DNA of 64,000 nt from Owenia fusiformis. Its lineage: Eukaryota > Annelida > Polychaeta > Sabellida > Oweniidae. The stretch lies in assembly GCA_903813345.2 (NCBI GenBank), contig CAIIXF020000003.1, positions 31,931,151-31,995,150 of the forward strand. Reading direction: 5' to 3'. Under the pieces are notes generated by a model. The model ran no database searches, was not told the origin of the DNA, and saw only the letters and a list, made by a program, of their open reading frames with translations. Shown in pieces: positions 32,373-48,500 of the stretch (positions within the stretch are counted from its first letter, which is position 1; every line of letters starts with the position of its first letter). The translations under genes were made by a program, and so were the position numbers.

Positions 32373-33926
32373 TAGCCTTGCCCAAGTCGGTCTCTTTTAC
32401 TATCTTGATTTCTATTATGACCGCCTTGTACCAAAGAGAAAGCCACGTGCTTTACCGACTCAATGTTTATGTCGGTAAAATTTGACCAATCAACGACGGC
32501 CCTGCAGCGTTAGCTCATTATTATGCGCGGTCAAAAACAAGTACACTTTTTACTTTTCGCCGGGACTTTTCACGGACAAATCTTGCATGAATTCATCATG
32601 AAAATACAAATATTTTATCAGATAAATATCAATCAGAGTTTAGTGGATGCCGGAGCATCGATCGGTAACCGGAGGTGAGAAGATTTCAACAATAACCGTT
32701 GAAACGATCGCTGAATTCAAATGAACATGTAGCTGAGATTCAATCACTGATCGACTACATGACCCGCTACATTGGACTCGGTCTTGCATTTTCATCGCGA
32801 AATCAGTTTTAAATCTATTGCATGATTTAATTTATATTAATGACTCTTACATTCCCTATGTACAGGGTGTTCAAAAAAACGCAACCCAAAGAAATCGCTA
32901 TATCTTGGAAAATAATAATGCAATCATGTTCATTTTTTCAAGAAAGAAAGAAGAGACTGTGTATGTATAGCTCATGTAGTTGGTTAGTTATAAAACATGA
33001 TGCCTTAGACACCTGCTCAAAAGATATTAGAATTGGAAAGATACGAAAAACACAGGGGGTGACTGCCACAGCAATAAAACCGAATAACTTTCTAATTATA
33101 GTGTTTTAGCTCTTCAAATTTGGCACAAATCATCTTCATTCAAAGTATGGTAAATCTGTAGAGTGAAATCAAAATCACTCCTTGGACTTTACAGTTATGG
33201 TCGAAATGCATTCAAAACGCAGTCAAACGCCCTGGTTCAGGCAGACTTAAGAAGGCATTTTGACCATGACTCTAAAGTCCCTGGAGTGATTTTGATGAAA
33301 CTCCACAAATTCACCACACATTGAATGAGAATAATTTGTGCCAAATCTGAAGTGCCAAAACACTATGGTAAAAAGTTATTCAGTTTTATTGCTGTGGCAG
33401 TCACCTTTGACTGCGTTTTTTGTATCTTTCTAATAGTAATGTATTTTGAGCAGGTGTCTAAGGCTTCATGTTTTACAAGTAAATAACTACAGGACCTCTA
33501 CATGCACAGTCTCTCCTTTCTTTCCTGAAAAAATGAGTGCAATTGGATAAGTATTTTCTAAGATATAGCGATTTCTTTGGGTTGCGTTTTTTTTTAACAC
33601 CCTGTACATTTAATTACATAATATATTGTTACTCTAAAGAAACGATCGATCAGATCATTGAATTTCAAATCGGGAAGATTGCTTTGCTTATGCAGGTCAA
33701 CCTGATAACGTTTTGATTGGTCAATCAGCCTGAAGTCACACGTCGTGTCCACGCGTATATATGTTAATCAATAAGGTTTCGCGATACCCCTGATAGCGTA
33801 GGTATTATGGAAATCTCGAAACCGTTGAATAACTCTGCATAATATCAGCGCAGGTGTATTGGATTGTACAAGGCGGTAATAATTCAAGATCAGATAAGTA
33901 AAAAAATACCGACTTGGGCAAGGCTA
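32373..33926. mobile_element. TIR element with 9-base target duplication (Mutator-like?)
   Basis: The ends TAGCCTTGCCCAAGTCGGT and ACCGACTTGGGCAAGGCTA are inverse, and weaker complementarity continues for about 60 bases (to a GTACAAGGCGGT string). GAATCCTGG flanks the element directly on both sides. Removing the element and one flank restores a normal satellite unit, which fixes the insertion site. A nine-base duplication fits Mutator-like elements; no transposase is present. Confidence 0.65.
32861..33606. mobile_element. Near-complete foldback element, TA target site
   Basis: TACAGGGTGTTCAAAAAAAC at the left and its complement (...AACACCCTGTA) at the right frame two arms of about 340 bases that pair almost throughout, with the centre near 33235. 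It sits inside the 32373-33926 element. A related family member is at 59055-59984. Confidence 0.82.
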
Positions 33927-34625
33927 GAATCCTGGCTACAGGATCCATTTGTTAACTACCCTCTATATGAATCCTGCACGAATCCTGAAGGCTGGATTCA
34001 TTTGTAAACTATCTTACATATGGACCCTGCTTGAATCCTGGCTACAGGACTCATTTGTAAACTACCTTTTGTATGAATCCAGTGCGAATCCTGAAGGCTG
34101 GATTCATTTGTAAACTACCTTACATATGGACCCTGCTTGAATCCTGGCTACATGACTCATTTGTAAACTACCTTTTGTATGAATCCAGTGCGAATCCTGA
34201 AGGCTGGATTCATTTGTAAACTACCTTACATATGAATCCTGTACGAATCCTGAAGGTTGGATTCATTTGTAAACTACCTTACATATGAATCCTGCACGAA
34301 TCCTGAAGGCTGGATTCATTTGTAAACTATCTTACATTATGCACCCTGCTTGAATCCTGGTTACAGGACTCATTTGTAAACTACCTTTTGTATGAATCCA
34401 GTGCGAATCCTGAAGGCTGGATTCATTTGTAAACTATCTTACATATGAATCCTGCTTGAATCCTGGCTACAGGATTTATGTATAAACTAGCTTCTATATG
34501 ATTTCTGCACGAATCCTTAATGCTGGATTCATGTGTAAGCTATCTTACATATGAATCCTGCTTGAATCCTGGAGGCAGGATTCATTTGTAAACTATCTAA
34601 ACCGCGAATCCTGTATGAATCCGCT

Positions 34626-38861: not shown

Positions 38862-39561
38862 ATGATGCTTACGGGTATCATGATTCCAACACTTTCGAAG
38901 ATGTTATACTTGATTTATTTTGCAACAATCATTGCAGCCATTAACACCGAGAAACTGCAAGATGACAGCAAAAGTGAAGTAGAACCCACGCCAAATTTAT
39001 ACACAAATATTACATTTGGCGAAGAAATGGTCAATGGAACTGCAACATTAGCTAAGGATGAAGACGACATTGAGAAAGCACTGAAGACAAACTTACAATC
39101 GAAAGAAGAATACAGTCAACTTCTTGAAAAAGCTATCAACAGCATCCACTCTAGCGAATCTGATCTGGATGATTTCCTAAACGCATTGTCTGATTTAGAA
39201 CTCAAGGAACTCCTTGAAGCTGCGAATGAATCGAAAGAGAACTATGACGGAGATATTGATCTATCGAGAGAACAAATTATTAAACTTATTCGACTGCTCG
39301 AATTATTGGAATCTTCAAAAGAAATCAAATTATCGGGCAGTATCAATAATGTAGAGATGCACAGTCAAGAGGAGAAAGTTGTTGAAGAGGAACTTGTTGA
39401 ACACAAACCAATCGAAAATAAAATGAAGGAGATAAAACAAAAGCATGAGAGAGTACAAGATCCAGCTAAACACCGTGTAAAAAGGAAAATGTTGAGACGT
39501 TTTAAGAGTAATGAAACATGGACATTCCCCATCAATTATTACATCTCCCCGGGATTCTTTT
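38862..39561 (+). CDS. Astacin gene exon 1: signal peptide and propeptide
   Basis: The exon encodes 233 residues and ends in phase 1 at a GTAAGT donor. A hydrophobic stretch (about residues 14-27, MLYLIYFATIIAA) serves as signal peptide. The propeptide is long and acidic, with YDGDIDLSREQ at 128-138, which matches the astacin aspartate-switch motif FxGD that occupies the zinc in the zymogen. A basic HRVKRK site (204-209) would allow furin-type cleavage shortly before the catalytic domain. Two adjacent ATGs begin the frame; an internal Met14 is an alternative start. Confidence 0.82.
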
Positions 39562-42500
39562 GTAAGTTGTTTTTTATTTGATTTTGTTTTTTTCATCTTA
39601 CATAATACCACATCTAGTTTTGTTTTGTGCATTAATCCCACGATTGTTGTAATTTATAGAAGTAGGTAAGATGAATATTCCATGTGAATATTAGAGTAAA
39701 ATCAAAACAATTGTTTTGGGATAATGGGTAGTAATCCCGAAGATATATGTGGTATTTTGAGGATCAATCGTTTCCTTCAAATTACAATGTGTTTTTTTTA
39801 AACTTTTCAGCATGAATATAGAGTTGGGACCTCAAAACCACAGAATGCCAGAGCGGCAACTCTCTACAGACCATTTCTCATACCCCCCTAATGAAATCTA
39901 CAGGGGGTATTATTAAGACGTCTTTTTAGTCTTTCTCTAGGTCGACTAAAATGAGGCGTCTTTCTATTACTTTTCAATCTCTTACTATTTCAATCCTGAG
40001 TACTTGTTTTTTTCTGATTGTAGTTTCAAATGCTAAGAAACTGATCAGAGATAATTTGCAAGTCTGGGAGGACCAAACATGTGCAAGCTTCAATGAAGTG
40101 TTTTTGCCTACAAAGTCACCTGGTATTATATTCAAAAATGGAAAGGGGTACGTATTTCCTGTGCATATTAGTCATTAAGCTATTTAAATGGATTGTTTAG
40201 TATGTGCAATTTACAATAAAACAGACTTTTATATTTGATTTATTTTGCAGATGCAATTCAATAACAGGTAAAACCAGTGAAGTCGCCATGAGGGAAATAG
40301 TTCTAGAACTACCCAATTGTTTCCTCGTAAGTATACATGAAGTTCTAGAACTGCCTAATTGTTTCCTCCTAAGTATACATGTAGTTCTAGAAGTACCCAA
40401 TTGTTTCCTCGTAAGTATACATGTAAGGTAGTTCTAGAACTACCCAATTGTTTCCTCGTAAGTATACATGAAGTTCTAGAACTGCCTAATTGTTTCCTCC
40501 TAAGTATACATGTAGTTCTAGAAGTACCCAATTGTTTCCTCGTAAGTATACATGTAAGGTAGTTCTAGAAGTACCCAATTGTTTCCTCGTAAGTATACAT
40601 TTAGTTCTAGAAGTACCTAATTGTTTCCTCGTAAGTATACATGAAGTTCTAGAACTGCCTAATTGTTTCCTCCTAAGTATACATGTAGTTCTAGTAGTAC
40701 CCAATTGTTTCCTCGTAAGTATACATGTAAGGTAGTTCTAGAAGTACCCAATTGTTTCCTCGTAAGTATACATTTAGTTCTAGAAGTACTTAATTGTTTC
40801 CTCGTAAGTATACATGAAGTTCTAGAACTGCCTAATTGTTTCCTCCTAAGTATACATGTAGTTCTAGTAGTACCCAATTGTTTCCTCGTAAGTATACATG
40901 TAAGGTAGTTCTAGAAGTACCCAATTGTTTCCTCGTAAGTATACATTTAGTTCTAGAAGTACTTAATTGTTTCCTCGTAAGTATACATGTAGTTCTAGAA
41001 CTGCCTAATTGTTTCCTCGTAAGTATACATGTAGTTCTAGAAGGTAACTGGTCAACTCGTACCCAAGACAAGTCGTACCCAAGACAACTCGTACCCAAGT
41101 ATATATTTTGTTTTGAATCAAGCATTGGACTGGGAATGTGAATAGATATACATATTATAATTGTAACATACTGTTCAGAATAGTTTAAAGTTTGAAGAAG
41201 AATTTTCGGAAGAAATTGATTTAATTTTGTGACATTTTGAGCTGAGTGTCAATTTATATTTAATATGACTATTATTTTATATTGGTCAGATTCAGGATGT
41301 TTGAGTGAAGAGACATATGTTTATAATCATTTTTCAAAATATTGTATGTTCATGAGTGTTTGGAACAAGTGTCAGATCTAATGTTGTAATTATTTTATTT
41401 ATATATATGTTTGACAAAAAAATGTTGAGAACAAGCGCTTCAAGCACTTTTTTATTTAATAAAAAATGCTTTACTGATCCATTGAGAAAAAATGTCGTCT
41501 AAATTCAAAAAAATATTCACATTATAACATGAAAGCATTACAAATTCAATTTTTTCCCTAATATGCACCCATAATACTGAAAATAAGCTTGGGTACGAGT
41601 TGTCTTGGGTACGAGTTGTCTTGAGTACGAGTTGTCTTGGGTACGAGTTGACTAGGAAGCTGTGACTACATAGCCATACTATTCCGTGTGTTAAGTCGGT
41701 ATTTAAGAAACGTTAATACTTGAATTGAGGTGGTGTCTATAGTTTAAGATTTAATATCAACGTTTTATCGTACCAGCCAGGGACGATTCAACATGAAATC
41801 GGACATGCTTTGGGTCTTGTACATGAACACGCCAGACCGGATCGAGACTCCTATGTTACTATATACAACAGTAGAATTCTCCCAGGAGCCAACGTAAACT
41901 ATGTGTCGTTTAATTGGTTTGAATCTTTGACGGAAAACGTGGAGTATGATTACACTTCTGCAATGCAGTACGGTGGAACGGTAATTTCAATTTTATAATA
42001 TAAAGCTCTGTGGAAACTTTATCAGTTTACCTCATAATTACTTTTTTCGCGCACCCCTTTCGTTTTTCCATTAACGTCTATTCTCTACACTGAATACTAT
42101 CGATATGATGTTTTAGTTGACATGATCATATTCCTTTTAACTTTCTTTTTCTTGATCTTGAATGATAATCCGGAAACTAACGTTCTTTTGTTTGAAGCGT
42201 GTTAACAAAGTTTAAACCTCCATTTTGTTTATGTTACCCACACGTGGTCAATAAATTTCATTCGGCCAAACAGCTGAAATGCGTGATGATTGTCAAGGAA
42301 GTCATTTTAATTCAAGTTGTCATCATGTGGAACTGCCTTATTTGATTTGAAAATAGGAAATCGGTTGACTGAAGTTGAAATTGACCCAGAAGCCTGAAAA
42401 TGGTTTTAAAAAGGTGCTACGAGATGGAAATTCAATTTGATATACAAAGTATGAGCTAGGATAGTCTCCGATTTGATAATCTGAAAATATTTACATTTTT

Positions 42501-45500
42501 TTGTAAAATGAAAGGGCGCTATTTTTTTCAAAATGTAAAAATGTTAACCTCTGTATGGGGTATACAATTAAGGAGGCGTTTCCTAACATCACAGAAAGTT
42601 CTTCAGATTTATGTAAATATAATAACTGTATCGTAACATTCGTTATTTCATTTTATTGATACCATCTCGAGATGGAAGATATGAATTTGATATACAAAGT
42701 ATGAGCTGGGATAGTTTCCGATTTGATAATCTGAAAATCTTTACCTTTTTATAAATGACCGAAAATCAAATATCTAAGGGGCAGTATTTTTTCAAAATAT
42801 AAAAATTTTAACCTCTGCATGGGGTTTACAATTAAGGAGCCATATTTTATTTTTAGGCGTACTAAGATTAATTAAGGAGGCGTATCCTAACATCACAGAA
42901 AGTTCTTCAGATTTATGTAAATATAATAACTGTATCGTAACATTCGTTATTTCATTTTATTGATAAATCGATGTAGCATATGGGCAACAGAGAGGGCACT
43001 GTGGTCATGAAGGCAAAGTTTGAGGAATACCAAAAGACAATGGGGCAGAGAATGGGACTTTCATTCTTAGACGTGAAGATCTTTAATTATCAATACTGTA
43101 GAGGTAAAAACACAATAATAATGTGTTGATTTACATGATTTGCCATAATCGAAGAATATTCAGCTTAGTCATATGTTACATTTGTGTATTTTTTGCGCAA
43201 CATTATTGTATGGAGATATTTTAGTTTGGGCATATTGTTACTCTGTCATATTCAAGACGAGGCAATAACATACAAAATGTCACCACCTGCCATTTGTTAC
43301 AGACGCCGAACACCAACCGCCGAACACAGTCCACAAAGTTGGATACTATAACTACTTTCTAGTGGTGACAGAAATGTCAAACTTGGTTCTCGCTGTCATT
43401 ATTTAACCAACAAAATTTACATTCTTAATATTTTTGAACAAGCTTTTCAATCGGCCTACAAGATATCTCGACATCTGATATTATTATATCACTATCTAGC
43501 TAGCGACAGTATGATTGGTCAAAACCGGGTCACATGTCGTGGGATATCTGGCGATATTCAATGGCAATGCTAATCAGATAAGACAACCGTGAGATATCTA
43601 GCGATATCCCACGCTCCCGGGAATTTTCAAATAATTTGTTTTCGTTCAGTGTAAATAATTAAGTTCAGTTTAAGTCAAAATGGCAGACGAACCGAGTAGA
43701 TTCGTAAAAATAACTGAAGACTTAATGACTTAATAATATTAGGGATTAAATAGATTAAAATTCCTCAATTCACTAACCTTTTATAGCAATACTATCTAGC
43801 TTTCGACAACACCTGTTGCCTTTCTCAAGATGTCTGAATTTGGCGGGAAACTGGTAGATTTGACCTTGACTTGATCTTTGACCTAGCAACCTCAAGTAGA
43901 CTCGGGGAAACCTTGTATCCTAAGTCTCTGTTAAGTTCAGGTTTGTATTTATGAATATGTATCGCTTCCTTTATCTTTCTATCAAAGTATTTAGACTCTG
44001 AGTCAATAAGTCTATAATCCCAGTTTATCTTATGCGCTTCATCAAATGAATGTTGAGCGATTGCTGACTTGTCTGGGTTAATTCTTAAGGCGTCTCTGTG
44101 TTCTTTTATTCTAGTTCCTATGGCTCTCCCTGTCTCTCCTATATACTTCTTATCACAATCTGAGCACTGGATTTCATATATGACTCCGGACTTAAGGTCC
44201 TTGGGAGTGGGGTCTTTGGGTGCAACTAACGCTTGTTTGATAGTTTTTACTGATTTGAAACAAGTCTTAACTCCAATGTCTTGAAAAACACGTTGAAGTT
44301 TGGGAGCGATCGAACTCACATAGGGAAGAACTACCTGAATATCCCTATCTTCACTGTCTCTAGCAGGATCCTGTTGCCTAACTGTGTGATTCTGAGCTTG
44401 GTTTAACATCCAAGATGGATAACCACACCGGGCTAATGCTTTATTAATATGGGTTTTCTCTGCTTCTAGCTCTGCGGGATTTGTAATAATTTCATTGGCT
44501 CTCTTGTGTAAAGTCTTAACGATTCCTTTCTTTGTTGAAAGTGGGTGATGTGAATCAAATTTTTAGTATAAATCAGTGTGTGTGGGTTTTCTATACACAC
44601 TAATGGACAAAGATCTATCCTTCTGACTTTACACAAGAGAGCCAATGAAATTATTACAAATCCCGCAGAGCTAGAAGCAGAGAAAACCCATATTAATAAA
44701 GCATTAGCCCGGTGTGGTTATCCATCTTGGATGTTAAACCAAGCTCAGAATCACACAGTTAGGCAACAGGATCCTGCTAGAGACAGTGAAGATAGGGATA
44801 TTAAGGTAGTTCTTCCCTATGTGAGTTCGATCGCTCCCAAACTTCAACGTGTTTTTCAAGACAATTGGAGTTAAGACTTGTTTCAAATCAGTAAAAACTA
44901 TCAAACAAGCGTTAGTTGCACCCAAAGACCCCACTCCCAAGGACCTTAAGTCCGGAGTCATATATGAAATCCAGTGCTCAGATTGTGATAAGAAGTATAT
45001 AGGAGAGACAGGGAGAGCCATAGGAACTAGAATAAAAGAACACAGAGACGCCTTAAGAATTAACCCAGACAAGTCAGCAATCGCTCAACATTCATTTGAT
45101 GAAGCGCATAAGATAAACTGGGATTATAGAATTATTGACTCAGAGTCTAAATACTTTGATAGAAAGATAAAGGAAGCGATACATATTCATAAATATAAAC
45201 CTGAACTTAACAGAGACTTAGGATACAAGGTTTCCCCGAGTCTACTTGAGGTTGCTAGGTCAAAGATCAAGTCAAGGTCAAATCTACCAGTTTCCCGCCA
45301 AATTCAGACATCTTGAGAAAGGCAACAGGTGTTGTCGAAAGCTAGATAGTATTGCTATAAAAGGTTAGTGAATTGAGGAATTTTAATCTATTTAATCATA
45401 CACCTAACCAATGAACAATTTCGGATAAATATTAGGGATGTTTAGCTAGACAGTGATATAATAAAACAAATATTTCACTCTACTTTCGGTGAATACCTGT

Positions 45501-48500
45501 AGCACTTTCACAAGGTGATATTCCACTTGCCCTTCGGGCTTCGTGGAATATCACTTGTGAAAGATGTACAGGTATTCACCTCAATAGAGTGAAATATTTG
45601 TTCAATATTGTACCCTCGAAGAAAACCTGAAGTCGATAGTGCAGATTGCTTGATAATGAAATAGGTGAATAATATCATTTTTACACAGAACGGTGTCCAG
45701 GATATGACACATTGGAATGGTCGGAGTGCCAACATGGCGGATACAGAAACCCACTCAATTGCAGCGTGTGTCGATGTATTGATGGATGGAGCGGAGCAAA
45801 ATGTGAAAATCTCGAACCGTCTTCAGAAGGCGTCACTCCTCACTTACGAAAGAGGCAAACCATCTCAAATGGTATGAACCATTTCCATCCCCGAATATCC
45901 TTTGTTCCACACTCACAGCTACTAGATTTAAATTCAAACAAAAAGTAAATTATCATCATCATCATATGTCATCATCAATACGGTCGCAAGACGTATTTTC
46001 ATGCTGTGTTTTATAAATCTTTAGTCTTACAGTACCCGTATGCACAGGGCGCGGCAACAGTAAGCTTAAGGTACAACACAGGGAATTGGAATTTGCGTTA
46101 TACCGTATCTTACCCGCGCGTTATACCGTAGGCCCTATACTACATTCGGAAAATCTGCAGGTCAACAATTAAATTCATTGTGAAGTTCACTGTCTAGGAT
46201 ATTGTTACAGACATTCACATACAAAAATATCTATAAGTTAGACCAGATCTTTCTGAAACGATGAAAACATCGGTTCGCTCAAATTGCATCACCCTCGTGT
46301 TGTACCGTACCCCGCGCGTTCAACTGTCACGCTTAATTTAGTACGTACACGTAGTATGGCAATTGTGTAACACATACATTAATGTATATTTGTTCCTACT
46401 TTCAGCTGTTTGTGGTGGAACATTCTCTGCTGATCCAAGTTCAAAATCTTTGCTCAGTCCTGGTTACCCATTACCGGGATATAAACGCCATGCCACGTGC
46501 ACATGGCTTCTTCAGGTCAGACAATATAGATTATAGAACCTTCTCAAAATGAATTATATTGTGGCAGAAGGCTCGATGAATAAATTATGCATGAATTTTC
46601 ATAACACACATTCTTACAGAATAAATACTATTATGTTTTTTGCTTGTATTACTGCAAAATATATTTTTGAAATATGATCTTACACTACAGAAATGTAGAG
46701 TGTGTATTACCAATTTACATATTGTATCAAAAATCCTCGCTTTTCTCATTAAATTCGCTAGTTTTAGAGTCCTAGATCAAGACACTTTCGAATACTTTTC
46801 TGAATTTACTTGATTGATTTGTTTTAGGCACCGTTTGGGCGCCGTGTAAGTGCACGTGTTGTTGGCGACTTTGAAACTGCCTGTTCGGTCGTAAATTCAA
46901 CCATATGTGACCACGATTGGTTTGAAATACGATATACCAATCTAGGTTATCCTGGGCCAAGGTACCAAACATATATATTTGAAATTATCTACACATTATC
47001 AATTGTTTAAATGGATATTTTGCTTTCTTGCATAAAACGTCCAAAAATATAGTAATATCTTTATGCTGTGCAATATTTAGGCACGGAAATTTTAATAATG
47101 AATAGTGGCAGATCCGGGGAGGGGGCATGGGCCTTAAGTGGGCCCAGATAAAAAAAAATCGGCCCCAAAATGTTGTAGGGCTTCAAAAATGGGTATTTGG
47201 GGCATAATTTGGTCTTTTGGGACAATTTATCAAAAATGGGCCTTAATTTTTCAAAGTTTTGGCCCAATTTTTGGTTTAAGGGGCCCAAAATGTTTTTCTG
47301 CGCAAATGCGGAAATTTTTTTGTTAAAATTTTTTTGTTAATTTCTGGATCCGCATGGTCGCCACCTTTGCATATTTCACAGGTGATACTCCACGAAACCT
47401 CGAGCGCTAGTGAAATATCATCTTGCAAAGAGCCTGGTAATATTTATATTATATTGGTTTTAATGACGTGAAGAAAAATTGCTTGATGTACATTCTGTAA
47501 TAGGTTTTGTTGCACCGAAGGACCGAACAAAGCGTTTGTGTCAATTGGAAACGAAATGATGATAATTCTGAAATCAAACAACGTTTTTGTTGGAAAAGGC
47601 AAGAGAACTGGCTTCAAACTTGAATATTCTTCTATTGAAGGTATTTCAAATAAATCTACCTTTATAATTATATTCGAATGGTCAATAAACTCTTTTCTCA
47701 GCATTTATACACGTGGTGCAAGGATTAAAATAACAATCCTTTTTTGTTTATGTTATCTTCACTACATTACAGGTGATGGAGTCGTTCCCTGTAAAGCATT
47801 GAAGCTGAAAAATGTTGACAATAGCCAACAAAAATGGAGACAAGGAATTTACAAAAAACTGTCCATTCCATGGAATTCTAAACCGGTGTATAAGCACATA
47901 ATAGAGCCATTGTTCTTATACCATCGTTCGGGTACCTGGTTGTTTGGTGCAGTGGTAGGAGGAGTAAGTGCCGGGATGAAAGTACTAAGCAATGCGGCGT
48001 CACCCGACAAAGTCACTGAAACATGGAAGTCGTTTAGTTCGGGAAATTGGATTTCAGAACCTCGATTGTCATTAACATGCGACGATATATGTGACAGTAT
48101 TTGGCTTAGCGGCATTTCAAAACAATCTACATACGGTTATCTAAATGGAGCCTATGCACTCTTCCAAATGGACAATAATGGTGCGCCAGTGTATAAAAAG
48201 AGGACCTCCTCTAATGGGGATGTAACATTAAGCATGATCGGTAGAAATAAATGGCAGTTTAAGTCTGATTCCCACACTTTGGTATCACCTTTTATTACGA
48301 CTGAAACAAATCCAGCAAAAATACCAAATGCGTGGTTAATTGGCAATAAGAAAATAAAAATTGAGTGTTATTTTGGTGAGTGTAACATTATACAGAACAT
48401 ATCAACATTTTGTGCTGTTCATTTTATTTCAGATCCGACTTTTAATGTCACCAATGACCTTTTCAAGGTCAAAAAAGGTTAACAAAAGGTCAAAAAGGTA

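Follow-up and report, generated by a model that had tools for sequence, protein, structure and literature searches.

The window, by which we mean the whole 64,000-nucleotide stretch of DNA that was analysed, contains a gene for an astacin-family protease whose third exon runs without interruption into a minisatellite (Table 1). Exons 1–5, when spliced through the donor of the first repeat unit, join as one open frame. The joined product matches the astacin family (PF01400, M12A) with 147.3 bits over positions 2–188 of 189, that is, over a complete domain, and its HExxHxxGxxH motif reads HEIGHALGLVH. Moreover, two alignments to solved astacin-family enzymes run without a gap across the junction of exons 3 and 4 (...PNCFL/PGTIQHEIGHALGL, the slash marking the junction). 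Since the frame is open, the domain full and the junction gap-free, we take the unit-1 donor to be the natural end of exon 3. Unit 1 is continuous in frame with this exon, and all other units fall within intron 3 of the gene model.

Table 1. Exons of the astacin gene, the repeat array with its donors, and the adjoining element (positions in the window)
Feature	Positions	Strand	Remarks
Exon 1 (start, propeptide with basic cleavage site, first protease residues)	38862–39561	+	Open frame in phase, GTAAGT donor
Exon 2	40024–40147	+	AG acceptor, GTACGT donor, phase 2; paralogs matched by tblastn
Exon 3 (GCNSITGKTSEVAMREIVLELPNCFL)	40251–40326	+	Array unit 1 takes its exonic part from the last 29 bases
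Boundary-spanning minisatellite (G000:C3)	40298–41043	+	TRF: period 42, 17.3 copies
Unit 1, 5' splice site GTAAGT, taken as real	40327–40332	+	Open frame, complete astacin domain, 147 bits
Unit 2, disabled donor CTAAGT	40369–40374	+	Same type at 40500, 40673, 40846
Unit 3, donor	40411–40416	+	If used, would lengthen the message in frame by 84 bases (28 residues)
TAAGG, 5 bases inserted in the C-type unit, followed by TAG (40429–40431)	40424–40431	+	
Eleven further GTAAGT donors	40458–41024	+	First bases 40458, 40542, 40589, 40631, 40715, 40762, 40804, 40888, 40935, 40977, 41019
Transposable element, MITE-like	41043–41660	+	Directly abuts the array; 16-base subterminal repeats
Exon 4 (PGTIQHEIGHALGLVHEH..., zinc-binding helix)	41777–41980	+	Phase 0 acceptor
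Exon 5, end of the astacin domain	42977–43103	+	

The surroundings of the gene hold further features. Downstream of the astacin exons, an EGF-like cysteine-rich stretch (45727–45804) had no match in Pfam. When ten open stretches downstream or nearby were scanned against Pfam, the one match was GIY-YIG, just below the cut-off. An inverted pair at 43744–45397, which is 99.1% identical over 781 bases and matches GIY-YIG weakly (21.4 bits against a cut-off of 22.6), is presumably Penelope-like. Upstream of the gene lies another higher-order minisatellite (33923–34622), with periods of 53, 106 and 319 bases.

Anatomy and origin of the array

The anchor TTGTTTCCTC is present 17 times in the array at spacings of 42 or 47 bases, the longer ones coming after C- and F-type units. 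It is followed by GTAAGT in 13 of the 17 copies and by CTAAGT in the other four, and TRF detected higher-order periods of 131 and 173 bases besides that of 42. The initial annotation, which had listed 17 units, 13 intact donors, four CTAAGT variants and the two longer periods, is thus borne out in these respects. Its 42-base unit also stands, but its division of that unit into 27 exonic bases, the six-base donor and nine more does not: homology to the array begins at 40298, within exon 3, which gives 29 exonic and 13 intronic bases. Likewise, the array is present but its limits, first placed at 40302–41045, shift to 40298–41043, the end lying at about 41043, where an unrelated element starts.

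The array holds 13 GTAAGT sites, whereas 2000 base shuffles gave 0.2 on average and never more than 3. The bases from −10 to +11 around the donor are the same in all 13 intact copies. Sorted by their exact 42-base sequence, the units represent nine types, arranged in the order A-B-C, A-B-C, D-E-B-F, D-G-B-F, D-H-I. Because the types recur in ordered blocks, the array grew by blocks. The four CTAAGT units, correctly counted at first, all turn out to be of the single identical type B, so that the lost donor probably represents one mutation carried along by higher-order duplication rather than four. Units 1–3 and units 4–6 are identical over 142 bases from 40298, and exact block repeats of 142 and 199 bases within the array suggest recent turnover. 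The donor region of the unit core is less variable than the rest of the unit (1 of 24 columns variable, P about 0.015, for a region chosen after seeing the data and with shared ancestry ignored), and this low variation could hint at constraint on the donors.

Judged by exons 2 and 3, the paralog nearest to this gene is L002, whose exon 3 ends in ...IVLKYPNCFS/GTAAGT, and in four others (L001, L003, L004 and L009) exon 3 ends two or three codons past the same cysteine. TRF found no array over the exon 3 boundary in any of these five paralogs. Since the exon end is kept in paralogs devoid of the array, the exon end is the older of the two, and it was from there that the array expanded into the intron. 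The idea, put forward in the initial annotation, that the array nucleated on a true exon–intron boundary is therefore upheld by the gap-free junction and by the same exon end and donor in five paralogs. The unit does extend far into the intron, as it would if the array were an unrelated intronic satellite or if the exon end had been made from the array. Yet the exon end is conserved both in the array-free paralogs and in solved astacins, and a search for the unit-core pattern with up to 3 mismatches in the 498-Mb (498.3 Mb) assembly, its masked stretches read as N, gave 17 matches, every one of them in this array, with no other copy found in the genome. The paralogs and the pattern search thus disfavour an unrelated satellite or an exon derived from the array, and we regard either as exceedingly improbable.

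Tandem arrays are hard to assemble, and this one is known from one assembly. An assembly artefact, however, would have to account for nine distinct unit types in ordered blocks, for flanks made up of a unique exon and an identified element, and for the same kind of structure at several other loci (see below), and is in our view highly improbable.

The element at the right end belongs to a family of which five other copies were fetched, both ends being located in four. Target duplications of 8 bases are exact in three of these four and shifted by one base in the remaining one (L013). For the window copy (41043–41660) no target duplication was found, and a rearrangement beside the element may thus have truncated the array on its right side.

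The most likely course of events begins with tandem duplication into the intron of a segment that spans the boundary of exon 3 and intron 3, with 29 bases on the exon side and 13 on the intron side. Block duplications of 131 and 173 bases, in either order, then brought the array to 17 units, presumably by unequal exchange or slippage. The real exon end, unit 1, still takes part in this turnover, as the identity of units 1–3 and 4–6 indicates.

As a separate observation on the paralogs, HEIGH is changed to RQIGH in L002 (G000:C7:37637500–37641500), so that judging by its sequence this protein is probably not an active protease.

Published counterparts and the choice of donor

Arrays of this kind are known from amphioxus, where 'mirages', tandem repeats over 5' and 3' exon–intron boundaries, were described in Adh3 and globins (PMC3087553) and further ones in troponin C and PGBD5 (PMC3902484). 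Like the array in the window, the amphioxus cases (Adh3, BflGb6, BflGb9, troponin C and PGBD5) are boundary-spanning, minisatellite-like repeats in which many units contain splice signals, with units of 10–160 bases (PMC3087553; PMC3902484). Our array likewise is a minisatellite spanning a boundary (29 exonic plus 13 intronic bases, 17 units), offers a splice signal in many units (GTAAGT in 13 of 17) and, in the gene model, has its copies on the intron side while retaining the authentic exon end. There are also differences. For amphioxus BflGb6, 3 and 6 units are given, against 17 here and more than 20 in two trypsin genes described below. Moreover, the boundary units of BflGb6 are reported to be excluded from homogenisation, whereas here the boundary unit lies within an exact, probably recent, block duplication. 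Mirage haplotypes differ in unit number (PMC3087553), and regular splicing was unaffected by RT-PCR (PMC3087553; PMC3902484); splicing and length differences were tested there, and the present array is described from the assembled sequence. Finally, the lineage is apparently another one, the genome described here being annelid-like.

Other systems share part of these features. In human IFI6 (6-16), a minisatellite provides multiple splice donors (Turri 1995), several of which are in use (PMC4526556). As in our array, its repeat units offer donors at an exon end; however, downstream IFI6 units are used in mRNAs, whereas unit 3 here is in frame and a candidate. The IFI6 unit is said to be about 12 bases long. 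In human segmental duplications, variable internal tandem repeats at exon–intron boundaries have been proposed to create introns (PMC2812944). These concern primate paralogs of recent origin in which exons and introns have become longer, and the excerpted part of that report does not describe multiplication of donors into the intron. The Rogers model of intron gain by tandem duplication of AG/GT sites (cited in PMC3087553, from which we take it) has in common with our case duplicated splice signals as raw material. On the other hand, no new intron flanked by duplicated sites is seen here: the copies lie inside a phase-0 intron that is old, its position being common to paralogs. Among annelids, earthworm metallothionein has minisatellites in its introns and duplications of the fourth exon that the final transcript lacks (PMC12783039); unlike our array, it shows no splice-site multiplication in the excerpted account. 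A search of the open literature, screened mostly at the level of listings, found no report of boundary-spanning minisatellites in annelids.

Which of the donors does the gene use? Because the 13 intact donors share the same bases from −10 to +11, any selection among them has to depend on position or on wider context. Roughly estimated, the energy of the U1 duplex is −7.6 for unit 1, −5.3 to −8.0 for the other donors of the gene and −4.5 for CTAAGT, values that have no bearing on preference among identical donors. Splicing most likely uses unit 1, since only that junction matches the family exon end and since published mirages are spliced normally. The later donors are most likely either silent or leaking into messages that stop early. 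Consistent with the initial annotation, units 1 and 3 are in frame, the frame staying open through the 28 codons that the unit-3 donor would add, and a TAG follows beyond unit 3; all donors from unit 4 on include it. As such donors would give early stops, leakage through them would be wasted. Taken together, we consider it quite probable that we are dealing with a 'mirage' minisatellite, which is tolerated and is mainly a by-product of the abundant minisatellite turnover in this genome, and that the gene still splices at unit 1.

Two functional readings have to be weighed against this. Unit 3, or alleles with other numbers of units, might be used on purpose as an alternative-donor switch, adding 28 residues and yielding a modified or inactive protease. 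Unit 3 is indeed open and in frame with the same donor context as unit 1, and human IFI6 uses downstream repeat donors (PMC4526556). However, the insertion VSIHEVLELPNCFLLSIHVVLEVPNCFL would bring two extra cysteines directly before the zinc helix, and it would split a segment that is gap-free relative to solved astacins. We therefore think such a switch very unlikely. Alternatively, messages from units 4–17 could stop at TAG 40429 and be degraded, in which case the number of units would tune protease output in the manner of a rheostat. Beyond unit 3 there are indeed eleven intact donors with the same context, each including the TAG, as this would require, but the published mirages left regular splicing undisturbed (PMC3087553; PMC3902484), and random capture may suffice to explain the existence of such arrays (see below). 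This second reading appears distinctly unlikely, and a tolerated array with splicing at unit 1 remains our preferred interpretation.

Boundary arrays in other gene families

We next considered how exceptional the array is within its genome. The survey covered 167 loci: 70 astacin, 19 globin, 41 trypsin and 37 kinase loci. Of the astacin loci, 67 were all those of one search apart from the window's own and three came from another; their test was confined to exons located by five query peptides (100 merged coding hits). The globin set comprised all 19 globin matches. The trypsin loci, 41 of 161 and among the matches listed, were hand-picked roughly in table order, skipping whole-domain and most long-frame matches, and the kinase loci (37 of 144 matches) were hand-picked as exon-sized. 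The sets are thus non-random, the loci are not all different genes, and short exons can be missed. TRF arrays were present at 26 of 70 astacin, 17 of 60 globin and trypsin, and 11 of 37 kinase loci, occupying 4.95%, 5.01% and 4.05% of the sampled bases, respectively.

The array in the window is not a one-off: as an array on a boundary, it has about ten counterparts in the 167 loci, seven of donor type and three of acceptor type, eight of them clear and two probable. By set, they affect 1 of 70 astacin, 1 of 19 globin, 7 of 41 trypsin (in five groups) and 2 of 37 kinase loci; in the trypsin tally L095 is counted through L132 and L096 through L137, the last of which was fetched afterwards. Clear donor-type arrays were found at a globin exon ending in ...FKAEYFW/GTAAGT (L094; 171 bases, two copies), at a trypsin exon ending in CVVTGWGTTE (L102/L136; 44 bases, 21 copies including the exon's own, 14 with AGGTAAT), at a trypsin exon ending in TAAHCTSG (L096/L137; 32 bases, 23 copies beyond the exon's own, 20 with GGTGAGT), in the trypsin pair L118/L125 (92 bases, 2.8 and 3.3 copies) and at a kinase exon (L144; 71 bases, two copies). 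The clear acceptor-type arrays belong to an astacin locus (L010; 104 bases, 5.5 copies) and to two kinase loci (L144, 86 bases, 3.8 copies; L172, 51 bases, 4.7 copies). The probable ones, trypsin L132/L095 and L133, are of donor type and degenerate. The independence of these roughly ten events was judged by differing unit sequence and length, without a tree, and L096/L137, L132/L095 and L133 all lie at the same homologous trypsin boundary. Seven donor-type against three acceptor-type events, beside the window, are too few to claim a donor bias.

Several further arrays were rejected as boundary arrays: two lie inside an intron (L006 and L054), five lie before the exon (L040, L050, L062, L044 and L022), one has no shown exon (L008), and three are small and outside the coding part (L161, L166 and L173).

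Some individual loci deserve mention. In L144 (G000:C5:68971–70227) both splice sites of a single kinase exon have been multiplied by separate arrays, at 175–503 and 716–856. In L137 with L096 (G000:C10:13616305–13618400) more than 20 copies of an exon end with TAAHC, the motif of the catalytic histidine in trypsin-like enzymes, extend over some 830 intron bases, most of them with GTGAGT. L118 (G000:C7:37490973–37492134) and L125 (37500694–37501828) are neighbouring trypsin paralogs; as both carry the same kind of 92-base donor array, this array is probably older than their duplication.

Do arrays prefer splice boundaries? We compared observed and random placement at the 19 globin, 41 trypsin and 37 kinase loci, leaving the 70 astacin loci out and letting the ends of Pfam hits stand in for exon ends. 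Among 35 arrays of period at least 12 at these 97 loci, six overlap a boundary, a count that leaves out the L118, L125, L096 and L132 arrays, which touch other exons or are degenerate. Linear random placement, which favours the middle of a locus, predicts 9.5 overlaps (P of at least 6 = 0.95), and circular placement, which does not, predicts 7.3 (P = 0.77). Under a stricter null barring arrays with more than 60 exonic bases, 2.9 overlaps are expected (P = 0.07), the limit being arbitrary, chosen after seeing the data and exceeded, by hit coordinates, by two of the six observed overlaps. Orientation was assessed at the 130 astacin, globin and trypsin loci, where GTRAGT is repeated at least twice in sense in 8 of 52 arrays, two pairs among the eight not being independent and one, L008, having no shown exon, and in antisense in none. 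This is as expected if the arrays stem from real donors; GTRAGT outside arrays is also sense-biased, 151 to 74.

Chance capture of splice sites may suffice to explain these figures, and a modest preference of arrays for boundaries is possible given P = 0.07 under the stricter null. A stronger proposition is that splice sites themselves promote the formation of arrays, with recombination at transcribed boundaries, R-loops or the binding of U1 among the conceivable routes. The occurrence of about ten boundary arrays in 167 loci would fit this, as would the six overlaps against 2.9 expected once deep-exon arrays are barred and the repetition of GTRAGT in sense only. However, the same six overlaps do not exceed the 9.5 or 7.3 expected at random, the 60-base limit was set after seeing the data, and acceptors have been multiplied too (L010, L144 and L172). 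We consider attraction by splice sites unlikely; rather, splice sites would be caught by minisatellite turnover at a rate not clearly above chance.

The kind of array is therefore already known, and what is new is its apparent lineage, the number of units, the fact that an exact block duplication extends to the true exon end and, foremost, its recurrence across unrelated gene families of one genome. We lean, if only slightly, towards the view that the copying of splice sites is not peculiar to amphioxus but, in this genome, ordinary and recurrent, affecting 5' and 3' sites alike, with rows of identical donors tolerated by way of the copy attached to the exon. Work on how the spliceosome picks one of several equal 5' splice sites mostly relies on engineered constructs. 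If this view is true, such genes would offer, without any engineering, a way to see how identical splice sites are told apart by position alone: with 13 donors of identical context behind one exon, and similar rows in other genes, position effects could be read from RNA. The apparent recurrence in another lineage of mirages described for amphioxus and human genes also bears on ideas about intron gain and on errors in gene annotation. Since the arrays recur across families, the tolerance of splicing towards them and any preference they may have for boundaries are both questions worth testing.

In keeping with an annelid and not with amphioxus, the erythrocruorin linker domain, an annelid feature, has three matches on one contig, and four globin matches lie 7–48 kb away from them.
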